Shown: piece by piece, positions 28,124-40,003 of the stretch | Layout: each line of letters starts with the position of its first letter | Position numbering within the stretch: position 1 is the stretch's first letter | From: Minisyncoccota bacterium | GTDB taxonomy: Bacteria; Patescibacteriota; Minisyncoccia; Phycocordibacterales; UBA12079 | Assembly (NCBI GenBank): GCA_028689435.1 | Contig: JAQTWD010000003.1 | Coordinates: 1-42,177 of the forward strand | Length of the DNA stretch: 42,177 nt | Direction: 5' to 3' | Position numbers and translations under genes: made by a program | Notes under the pieces: model-generated | Seen by the model: the letters and a program-made list of their open reading frames with translations, nothing else | Databases searched by the model: none | Told to the model about the DNA's origin: nothing

Positions 28124-28157
28124 GTGAAAAAATTCTTGACTTATAAATCCCAGAACA

Positions 28158-28280
28158 AAAACTTACAAAATTGAGTGCAGTTCGAGGAAGTTTATGAAAA
28201 ATTGTTTGAGACGTATATAAAGTACGTTGAAAATAATTTTTTATAAACTGACGAAGAAATGTGCCAATTTTGGAAGTTTT
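28158..28280. ncRNA. candidate structured element copy 1 (strand undetermined)
   Basis: outer stem AAAACTTacAAAATTG/CAATTTTggAAGTTTT, middle stem AGTTTAT../..ATAAACT, inner CGTA/TACG hairpin; homologous to 33082-33225. Confidence 0.5.
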
Positions 28281-29714
28281 CTACAAATCAAGCGTGTCTA
28301 TATCTTTCTGGAACTGTATCGCTCTCTCAGCAACTTTGTATCCATAACTGTATTTTGAATACATATGCTTTGCATAATTTCCCCCCGCATAATATCTAGC
28401 AGCGGAACAACTCCAAATCTCAAATTGACTCGTAAATTTTGCGGAACAAGAAGCTCTTGCATCACTCAAATAACTTGCAGTTCCTACAAAAGCATCCAAA
28501 TTAACAAACGGCGAAGGTGCACTTATTCCCAACACCTTTGCAACTCTTGTTTTATATCCATAGCCTGTATCAATATCATACCAAGTTTTTGGCATAAATT
28601 GAGAAGGTCCCATCGCTCCTCCATAATTTCCATCACCATAAATAGGACAAGAAACAGGTGTTGTGTTTGGGTCCATCCCCAATTCTTTCATAATTGCCAA
28701 GAATGATGGTTTTTGAGAATTACTCATAACAGTTCCGGCACTGTTGTTTGCAGTTTGATTATAAGTACACCTACCCAAATTTTTACCGATTACTCCGTCA
28801 ATTGCAGATTCTTGAGTCAAAACAGCCAAAACCAAAGCGGATTCAATGCCAATTGCGTCTTCGTAAGGTTGAATCAGTCTTAATGCCTCACCAAATTTCA
28901 TTTCGGTACCGCCGACTGTTCGAAAGATTCTATTTCTTATTTCATTCTTTATCCTTTCTTTTTCAGCAATTGTCTTTTTGTATTCATCTTCTTGCGCTCT
29001 GTTAATACTTAACAATTTATTATTTTCACTTTTATAAGCTTCTGTTTTTCTTTTTTCCTCTTCTTTTGCAATTTTCAAAGCCAACTCATTTCTTTGTTGC
29101 TCTTCCAAAATTTGTTGAGCGGTCATTGTTTCCCCTTTGATTTGTCTTATCGCTGTCAGATTGTTTTGCAGGTCACTTTCCAAAATATCAAAATCATCAA
29201 AATCAACAAAAAATTCAGAAATACTTTCTTGTGAAAGCAATGCTTCTACAACAGAAAAATCATCTAGCTCATTTGTCTTTTTTATGATACTTGATATAGA
29301 TTCCAAAGTTCTTTCGGATCTCTTGTTTAGTTCAGCCAGTGTTTCTTTTTTAGCTGAAATACCCTGTTTTAATTGATAGATCTTTATATCTTTTGCTTTG
29401 ATATCAGATTGTGCCTTTGTAATTTTGCTATTAAGAATATCAATGTCTCTTTCTATGGTGACAGATTCTCTTTGTTTTTGTTGAAGCAATGCATTTTGTT
29501 CAGCGATTTCTTCTTCACATTTTTTCAAAGCTATTTTTAATTCCTCGTCTGTTTTTCCATCAAGATTAATACTACAAGTAACTTCTGATTTTGTCAGATT
29601 TGGAAAAACTAAAAAAACAACCATTAGCAACATTATGCTTGAATATATTACGCTTTTTTTCATTGTCCTTATTATAACTTTTTTCCCTTTTTGAGAAAAG
29701 GGTGAAAAAAACAA
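28281..29714 (-). CDS. secreted coiled-coil protein with lytic transglycosylase (MltB/SLT-like) domain
   Basis: signal-like N-terminus, long coiled coil, IESALVLAVLTQESAIDG...NYGGAMGPSQFMPKTWYDI. Confidence 0.9.
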   Translation of the reverse strand: MFFSPFSQKGKKVIIRTMKKSVIYSSIMLLMVVFLVFPNLTKSEVTCSINLDGKTDEELKIALKKCEEEIAEQNALLQQKQRESVTIERDIDILNSKITKAQSDIKAKDIKIYQLKQGISAKKETLAELNKRSERTLESISSIIKKTNELDDFSVVEALLSQESISEFFVDFDDFDILESDLQNNLTAIRQIKGETMTAQQILEEQQRNELALKIAKEEEKRKTEAYKSENNKLLSINRAQEDEYKKTIAEKERIKNEIRNRIFRTVGGTEMKFGEALRLIQPYEDAIGIESALVLAVLTQESAIDGVIGKNLGRCTYNQTANNSAGTVMSNSQKPSFLAIMKELGMDPNTTPVSCPIYGDGNYGGAMGPSQFMPKTWYDIDTGYGYKTRVAKVLGISAPSPFVNLDAFVGTASYLSDARASCSAKFTSQFEIWSCSAARYYAGGNYAKHMYSKYSYGYKVAERAIQFQKDIDTLDL

Positions 29715-32890: not shown

Positions 32891-32908
32891 AGAAAGCACA
32901 AAACAAAA

Positions 32909-32945
32909 TCCACGGAAGCAAGGCTTCCGTGGATTTTGTTTTTTT
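32909..32945. terminator. hairpin AAATCCACGGAAG-CAAG-GCTTCCGTGGATTT-TG
   Basis: strong stem after the pfkB-family gene. Confidence 0.85.
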
Positions 32946-33081
32946 AACAATCTAGCTCGTTTATTTGCCAACATAATCAAGAGTTAGCATCGTTTATCGT
33001 GGATTGCTTCGTTTCACTCGCAAAGACGAATTTTGCCAAAGGCAAAATTCGTCCCCTATATGCTATCCACTAATTTTAAAT

Positions 33082-33225
33082 AATTTTAAAATTGAATGAA
33101 GTTTGTCGTTGCTTCGAATTTGAAAATCCGAAGAGGAAGTGAAAGAAAAAACCCTGAGACGTATTTTACATACGGCGAAAGGTTTTTTCTTGAAACTGAC
33201 GAAGAAATTCGTCAATTTTAAAATT
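33082..33225. ncRNA. candidate structured element copy 2 (strand undetermined)
   Basis: outer stem AATTTTAAAATTGA/TCAATTTTAAAATT, middle stem AAGAAAAAACC/GGTTTTTTCTT, inner CGTAT/ATACG; shares GAGGAAGT, GAGACGTAT and AAACTGACGAAGAAAT with copy 1. Confidence 0.5.
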
Positions 33226-33231
33226 ATTTTT

Positions 33232-33708
33232 TTATTTAAAATAAACCGTTAATTCCAAAGCATCATCATGTTCTGGTAAACCAGACGGATTATCTTTTTT
33301 CAAAATCAACGCCCCTCTCCTACTAAAATCTCCTATATTTTGTGGATTTTCAAATTCCAAACTGGCCGTAAAAGGAACAAACTCCTCGGTCATCCAATCA
33401 TCTGTTGCAGTCGCAATACCTTGTGCAATTATTCTTCCGTCCCAATCAACCAGCGACACAGGAAAACTTGCTTCAAAAAACCAAGTCCCCCTTGCTTGAC
33501 CTTTTATTACAAGAGGGCTTGTTACTATTTCTTCTGGAAGTGGACTTTCAAGAATAACCAGATCTTTATAATTCAAAAAATCCTTTAATGGTTCTTCTGT
33601 ATTTCCATTTTCCACAACATCGTCATTATCTTTCATCTTCAAACCAACTTGCCACAAAAAACCAGCAATGATTACGAGAATACCCACAAAAAATAAAGTT
33701 TTTTTCAT
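33232..33708 (-). CDS. Gmad2 immunoglobulin-like domain protein, membrane anchored
   Basis: VILESPLPEEIVTSPLVIKGQARGTWFFEASFPVSLVDWDG. Confidence 0.85.
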   Translation of the reverse strand: MKKTLFFVGILVIIAGFLWQVGLKMKDNDDVVENGNTEEPLKDFLNYKDLVILESPLPEEIVTSPLVIKGQARGTWFFEASFPVSLVDWDGRIIAQGIATATDDWMTEEFVPFTASLEFENPQNIGDFSRRGALILKKDNPSGLPEHDDALELTVYFK

Positions 33709-37540: not shown

Positions 37541-37571
37541 AAAAAGTTGGCGGTCCAACCGCCAACTTTTT
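37541..37571. repeat. REP-like palindrome 1 (loop CCA), overlapping the RAYT stop codon
   Basis: AAAAAGTTGGCGGT-CCA-ACCGCCAACTTTTT. Confidence 0.95.
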
Positions 37572-38244
37572 AATCCCCATATCTTTTTTCATTTATATTT
37601 TTTGCTATTCCTTCTGAAATCTTTTTATAATTATTTATATCTGTGTATTGTCCTAGAATAATTCCCTTTTCACACAAATTATACTTGCTATTTTTATTAG
37701 TGTATTCATCCCAACTAGATCTATTTGGTATTGAATCCAAAAAATGTTTTCCGAATTTTTCAAATTTTGGGTGAACTTTGTTATTTAAGTTAACATAAGC
37801 GCTTGCATACAATAATTGTTCATTTGTTTCTATATGAACAGCCTTGAATTTGCCTTGAAATAACGCCCCACTTCTTTCGTATTTATTATTGATATACCAA
37901 GTATAGCCACCATTTAATCTTTTCATAAATTCACTTATTCCACCTTCAACCAACTGTTCTAATATAAAATGGTAGTGATTTGGATTTAAACAATAACAAA
38001 TGATATTTACCAATCTTCTTTTATCTCCAGAAAAGTTGGCGGTCCAACCGCCAACTTTTCTAATCTTTTTAGATTTATTTATAAGAAATATATCATTGCC
38101 AGATTCGACATTATTAAATTCTTCCATACTTTGAAGAAATCTAAGTGCGTCATATTTATCCATAAATATATGCCTTTTATCTACCCCTCTGTTGAAAATA
38201 TGATAATATTCCTTTTGAACAAATGGTGTTTTTCTATTTCCCAT
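37570..38244 (-). CDS. REP-associated tyrosine transposase (RAYT / IS200-like Y1 family)
   Basis: YYHIFNRGVDKRHIF, CYCLNPNHYHFIL (HUH), GISEFMKRLNGGYTWYINNKYERSGALFQGKFKAVHI; ATG at 38242-38244. Confidence 0.92.
   Translation of the reverse strand: MGNRKTPFVQKEYYHIFNRGVDKRHIFMDKYDALRFLQSMEEFNNVESGNDIFLINKSKKIRKVGGWTANFSGDKRRLVNIICYCLNPNHYHFILEQLVEGGISEFMKRLNGGYTWYINNKYERSGALFQGKFKAVHIETNEQLLYASAYVNLNNKVHPKFEKFGKHFLDSIPNRSSWDEYTNKNSKYNLCEKGIILGQYTDINNYKKISEGIAKNINEKRYGD
38030..38060. repeat. REP-like palindrome 2 (loop CCA), inside the RAYT CDS
   Basis: GAAAAGTTGGCGGT-CCA-ACCGCCAACTTTTC; translated as RKVGGWTANFS. Confidence 0.95.
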
Positions 38245-38259
38245 ATTTGTATATAATAA

Positions 38260-38294
38260 CACAAAAGTTGGCGGTTGGACCGCCAACTTTTGTG
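38260..38294. repeat. REP-like palindrome 3 (loop TGG, opposite orientation), just upstream of the RAYT
   Basis: CACAAAAGTTGGCGGT-TGG-ACCGCCAACTTTTGTG. Confidence 0.95.
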
Positions 38295-39716: not shown

Positions 39717-39887
39717 CGAGCCACATCCGTTTATTGCTACTTTTATTTTTTTCTCCATAATATTTTTTAAATTTTTAATTTTTTAAATATAATCCGAATC
39801 TACGAATTTATCCGAATACTACAAATTACGAATTACCCTAATAATCAACAAATCTACCATTCAAATAATAATCAAAAATTCTTCTGG

Positions 39888-40003
39888 ATTGCTTCGTCAC
39901 TCCGCTTCGCTCTATTCCTCGCAAAGACGAATCTCCTTCGGAAATTCGTTGACGGATTTTGCAAAGCAAAATCCGTCTTCGCGAGCGACAGCGAAGCGAT
40001 CCA
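39888..40003. repeat. GGATTGCTTCGTC...GCGAAGCGATCC inverted-repeat element
   Basis: nested palindromes (gacgaatctccttcggaaattcgt; gacggattttgcaaagcaaaatccgtc); related sequence at about 32995-33052. Confidence 0.7.

Follow-up and report, generated by a model that had tools for sequence, protein, structure and literature searches.

The bacterial MITEs RUP, Correia, ERIC and Nezha are short, non-autonomous, palindromic, intergenic and multicopy, and are often part of UTRs. The repeats bcr1–bcr3 of the Bacillus cereus group have been described as MITE-like and as frequent components of UTRs (PMC3446304). REP elements of the GTAG and CGTC superfamilies are small palindromes found mostly downstream of ORFs, and the CGTC group has no assigned transposase (PMC3733652). 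In addition, a 74-bp intergenic stem–loop family of 36 copies, Bhal-1, has been described in the Bacillaceae genome of Bacillus halodurans (PMC2267715).

We analysed a 42177-nt stretch of DNA (the window) from a 747-kb Campbellbacteria-like genome, and compared an element present in two copies within it with these systems. Like the bacterial MITEs, the element has versions in related phylum members, those ended by TAGGACTTACGC, with terminal repeats and target duplications; it differs from them in its two conserved purine internal loops and strand-specific fold, in a right end that lies flush with stop codons in a fixed orientation, in the absence of a target duplication in the window's genus and in that no autonomous partner was found. 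As with the CGTC REPs, no transposase is assigned to it, and its GACG is complementary to the CGTC tag. However, at 106–125 bp or more with two internal loops it does not have the CGTC REP plan of 20–40 bp, with an unpaired CGTC tag, an 8–9 bp stem and a CCA tail, when sequence and structure are set against the published description (PMC3733652). Like the REPINs mobilized by RAYTs, it is dispersed and forms hairpins in ssDNA, and the genome does hold RAYT genes; unlike REPs, it does not flank these genes, which sit with unrelated palindromes of their own (as at the RAYT-like genes of L152 and L154). Bhal-1, compared by description only, might be the Bacillaceae form of the element.

Copies were located with a covariance model (R1) built from seven clean copies, which has 106 positions and 41 pairs, 16 already compensated within the seven. 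The features of the two window copies are as follows.

28157–28281, + strand: element copy 1, approx. 125 bp with 9-nt terminal arms; the strand given is the GAGGA strand, i.e. the folding strand (from the R1 match, the arms and the fold)
28184–28188, + strand: outer internal loop of copy 1, 5′ side GAGGA, with the 3′ side GACGAA at 28250–28255 (from the sequence, and conserved across the family alignments)
28208–28211, + strand: inner internal loop of copy 1, 5′ side GAGA, closing the CGTA/TACG stem 28212–28215/28223–28226 (from the sequence and the A1/A2 alignments)
28281–28283, − strand: stop codon (CTA on +) of the 477-aa ORF 28281–29714; copy 1's right end lies flush against it
33078–33229, + strand: element copy 2, with extended, perfect 18-bp terminal arms and a left-arm insertion (from the R1 match and the arms)
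33103–33131 (boundaries approximate), + strand: insert in the left arm of copy 2, with a small hairpin of its own (from comparison with other copies)
33232–33234, − strand: stop codon (TTA on +) of the 158-aa Gmad2-domain ORF 33232–33708, adjoining the right end of copy 2

In the genome search, R1 matched copy 1 at 28166–28272 (104.7 bits, E = 1.8e-26) and copy 2 at 33115–33220 (67.7 bits, E = 1.2e-15). Copy 1 forms a single long hairpin in which an outer stem (arms 28158–28173/28265–28280, 94% complementary) is followed by the GAGGA/GACGAA loop, a middle stem of 16–19 bp, a GAGA/TTGAAA inner loop and the CGTA/TACG stem, the inner arms lying at 28189–28215/28223–28249. Copy 2 follows this plan with the insertion added, its left arm carrying some 30 additional nt; its terminal arms lie at 33078–33095/33212–33229 and its inner arms at 33143–33164/33170–33191. 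The predicted fold of copy 1 has −44.2 kcal/mol (z = −12.2) on the + strand and −18.5 kcal/mol (z = −6.2) on the − strand. For copy 2, the z-scores of −3.3 (+) and −7.2 (−) do not by themselves favour the + strand, because its − strand is predicted to form three separate hairpins rather than the common long one.

Both copies and their common blocks were present where the sequence-only reading had placed them, and both do lie just past minus-strand stop codons: the outer stem of copy 1 runs up to 28280, immediately before a stop starting at 28281, and copy 2 ends at 33225–33229 with the stop starting at 33232. As an observation, the folded copies are confirmed as real and general. The link that had been drawn to envelope-protein genes was not borne out. 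The 477-aa ORF has no Pfam hit, the 158-aa ORF is a Gmad2-domain protein and the host genes elsewhere are so diverse (including homologues of EF-Tu, L12, L2, S7, SecA and LepA, assigned by size and C-terminal sequence only) that there is no envelope theme.

Other palindromes occur in the same window. At 37544–38293 there is a RAYT-like gene (ORF 37570–38286, − strand; PF01797, NF047646 below cut-off), whose own palindrome, AAAGTTGGCGGT..ACCGCCAACTTT, is found three times, i.e. at each end and inside the ORF at 38033. The palindrome AATCCACGGAAGCAAGGCTTCCGTGGATT, at 32900–32942 after a pfkB-like gene, is also found on the flanks of, and within, a second RAYT-like gene of the genome (C28; L152 1248–2016), so that every RAYT seems to be accompanied by a palindrome of its own. 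Short units of the CGTC REP-like type (GGATTGCTTCGTC...GCGATCC) stand as inverted pairs around small hairpins at 33001–33053 and 39886–40002, and similar units recur elsewhere in the genome (L020, L021 and L024).

Allowing up to two mismatches, the motif ACTGACGAAGAAAT was found at 40 places in the 747-kb genome and its reversed control at five, and R1 finds approx. 27 copies there, so the two window copies are not chance look-alikes. With a unit of 106 positions in this many copies, the element is a short, non-autonomous, multicopy repeat, as MITEs are. R1 also matched 24 of 61 relatives, in which counts were patchy (0 to approx. 30), and 19 of 290 genomes phylum-wide. A scan of named genomes added Kerfeldbacteria, Saccharibacteria, Gracilibacteria, a Desulfobacteraceae bin and, most prominently, Bacillaceae; E-values reached 1e-29 over many genomes. 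In Lysinibacillus the unit lies between the 23S and 5S rRNA genes, the GAGGA strand being co-oriented with transcription, in Bacillus strains it lies between tRNA genes and in Psychrobacillus it forms tandem 5S-fragment/element units. At one such locus, in Psychrobacillus vulpis (L386 2700–3736), an intact 5S gene stands beside tandem 5S rRNA fragments, with the element after each.

Rfam 15 gave no family match above the gathering threshold for the element, phage and plasmid BLAST searches returned no element matches and literature searches with the element sequences found nothing relevant. A generic scan for GAGGA/GACGAA hairpins outside the R1 copies revealed none with immediate stem pairing, and a pattern scan of viral contigs was set aside as its matches were chance-like.

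All copies have in common the two purine internal loops (GAGGA/GACGAA and GAGN/YGAA) inside one long hairpin. The covariation score was 0.528 for 77 distinct genus rows, compared with at most 0.098 with slid partners, and 0.621 compared with at most 0.128 for 67 rows mostly from other genomes; these alignments were made to the model and therefore lean towards it, although the gap to the controls is large. Nearly every stem pair of the family shows a compensated change and, judged against the slid-partner controls, the covariation is that of a structured-RNA family. The GAGGA strand is the more stable one in 195 of 199 copies, with DNA parameters too, and G.T cells outnumber A.C cells (182 compared with 41, or 86 compared with 41 without two fixed wobbles), indicating that one strand of that polarity, either ssDNA or RNA, is kept folded. 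Covariation of this strength would not usually be expected of a repeat that is purely selfish, and it suggests that the fold of the single strand is selected. By eye, the purine loops may be represented as tandem G.A pairs on either side of a G-C pair.

The conserved purine loops and compensated stems first seen in two copies recur, as a two-loop hairpin with massive compensated change, in the many further copies and genomes that the covariance model brought in, their stems kept. The step that had been taken from covariation to a structured RNA holds for the fold, which covariation establishes, but is not supported for a regulatory RNA. In these bacteria the best-folding strand is antisense to the adjacent mRNA, the copies vary in presence and can be nested or in tandem, and related versions have terminal repeats and 5-bp target duplications, all of which are features typical of mobile palindromic DNA.

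The position of the copies follows a clear rule. In 57 of the 71 genus copies, the stop codon of an opposite-strand gene lies inside or just past the right terminal arm, mostly 2–12 nt from the model end, with the folding strand antisense to that gene, compared with 2.7% of random intergenic points. The orientation is fixed, with the right end of the element facing gene ends. In other genomes the rule is obeyed by 33 of 59 copies, a sense stop stands at the left end in 2/59 and several of the remaining copies are 7–17 nt upstream of a start codon on the right. The element is found at EF-Tu and L12 in three genomes (G000, G002 and G004) and at S7 in two (G000 and G002), and stop-flush copies at such highly expressed genes probably occur likewise in two further families, going by C-terminal residues only. 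All 16 copies in G004 are opposite to the leading strand. We rejected replication-strand bias as the cause, since wherever GC skew and gene direction conflict it is the gene that sets the orientation of the element, so that gene orientation explains the correlation with replication direction.

A functional cis-acting RNA, i.e. a structured RNA or a 3′-UTR hairpin with a role in processing, stability or termination, might be selected at gene ends with dispersal being secondary. This would fit the extreme covariation, the conserved unpaired purine loops and the stop-flush placement at the highly expressed EF-Tu, L12 and S7 genes, as well as the 23S–5S and tRNA spacers of the Bacillaceae, in which the GAGGA strand is in the transcribed sense. 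The same strand is, however, antisense to the adjacent mRNA in the CPR, so transcript polarity is not conserved, and no U-tract was found past the hairpin in the gene-sense direction, nor any A enrichment at −10 to −18 of the left flank. As most copies are also not common to close species, we regard such an RNA as a rather unlikely primary explanation.

This turnover was clear between G000 and its close relative G004, which have 95–98% protein identity at most of their common genes. Of the 16 copies in G004, no more than five are next to the corresponding gene in G000, and element-free counterpart sites could be aligned in both genomes (G000 C10:2835 and C33:13685; G004 C1:9650 and approx. 117716); the presence/absence variation between relatives is that of MITEs. 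Newer copies have also gone in beside or within older ones: at L12 the stop codon and an older copy are separated by a second, inserted copy, at L2 a newer copy stands beside an older one and at a 698/700-aa gene half of the same old copy has been replaced by different new copies in the two species. One copy (L245/L220) has been vertically inherited with few changes, including one wobble-to-pair change, and no arm conversion. At the same locus, a 20-bp palindrome, CCTGCCTGCCGGCAGGCAGG, occurs twice within hairpins in G000 (C18); G004, whose locus can otherwise be aligned, lacks it. In other genomes (L436, L443 and L446), this palindrome is also found within copies of the element.

In four related members of the phylum (G340, G231, G270 and G033), near-identical copies end in TAGGACTTACGC...GCGTAAGTCCTA, most of them being 123–175 bp long and up to 239 bp with inserts, and several of the TAGGACTTACGC-ended elements are R1 matches. 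Exactly 5-nt direct repeats flank 17 of 24 such elements, compared with a mean of 0.9 and a maximum of 5 on shuffling. The terminal inverted repeat TAGGACTTACGC is shared by G340, G231 and G033, whereas arms in the window's genus, though complementary, differ from copy to copy. A comparable test detected no 5-bp duplication around the 71 genus (Campbellbacteria) copies, and the window copies therefore have no transposon signature of their own. A TA duplication, suspected from TAGG...CCTA ends, was superseded by the 5-bp result. A separate expanded subfamily in G267 (L416–L426) ends near AGAAACCTCTC...CAGAGGTTTCT, with terminal arms that differ between copies and are complementary throughout.

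No transposase with the same terminal repeats was found in searches with PF01609, PF13701 and PF00665 and of the stretches around unpaired ends, and DDE_Tnp_1, DDE_Tnp_1_4 and rve were missing from, or unlinked to, the TAGGACTTACGC carriers tested. RAYT/IS200 (Y1_Tnp) was rejected as the mobilizer because it did not track copy number and the RAYTs carry their own palindromes; four element carriers, G040 (with seven matches), G015, G020 and G047, gave no Y1_Tnp hit. Reverse transcriptase (RVT_1) was likewise rejected, as it did not track copy number and is absent from G004 and G007, which both have copies.

Given the antisense placement at stops, the turnover and nesting, and the 5-bp duplications in relatives, we favour, with a probability of approximately two-thirds, a non-autonomous mobile palindromic repeat family that is MITE/REP-like, spreads in trans and is retained at or targeted to stops, rather than a single regulatory RNA. 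The family is previously unlabelled, is not an Rfam family and works like a MITE or REP; we say ‘works like’ rather than ‘is’ because the window copies have no target duplication and no partner transposon. A host- or IS-encoded transposase, acting in trans, would recognize the single-stranded purine-loop hairpin, and the conserved loops and strand bias would reflect this recognition. In Campbellbacteria, insertions would be targeted to, or kept at, stop codons, where a unit would provide the mRNA with a long hairpin at its 3′ end and leave the protein undamaged, any effects on mRNA 3′-end processing or stability being secondary. An RNA stage or function is possible, the same strand being in the sense of rRNA and tRNA transcription in the Bacillaceae.

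Transposition alone does not account for a right end that abuts stop codons so precisely. The element might have a specific, one-way integration at the 3′ ends of genes, in which a structured single strand is joined to the gene-sense strand just after the stop, after which its end folds back and copies the target to give an inverted arm of fixed length. Such a route, which would be distinct from those of IS200/IS605, DDE transposons and group II introns, we consider quite doubtful. In the genus copies, the outer helix ends a near-constant 8–10 nt past the model, independently of where the stop lies, and each arm matches no arm but its own partner (score of 13.4 compared with 4.6 when shuffled).

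The complementarity of the stems might also be a product of mutation and not of selection, if the arms of the DNA palindrome keep correcting each other by fold-back template switching and if, at each insertion, new terminal arms are made as an inverted copy of the target. The near-constant helix end with its perfect match to its own partner is as expected from this, as are the G267 arms, and at G000 C10:2835 the left arm ACAATCTAA mirrors the last codons and stop of the gene, the site in G004 being element-free. However, that match is also explicable by element-owned arms joined at an AAATAA microhomology, the L245/L220 copy was inherited without arm conversion and the strand bias is not predicted, all of which makes mutational complementarity improbable. 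That the element is simply an intrinsic terminator, or an inverted repeat that arose by chance, is already contradicted, in spite of the gene-end location and A/T-rich stem base, by the present data, i.e. the covariance-model E-values, conserved purine loops, fixed orientation and lack of a U-tract, and is extremely improbable.

If the element is indeed a mobile palindromic repeat, one unlabelled structured repeat connects the ultra-reduced genomes of the CPR with the rRNA operons of the Bacillaceae. It would provide a test case for how a mobile palindrome is confined to stop codons, and a warning that mobile DNA can yield strong covariation in intergenic ‘RNA motifs’. Lysinibacillus, as a culturable carrier, would then offer a testable system.
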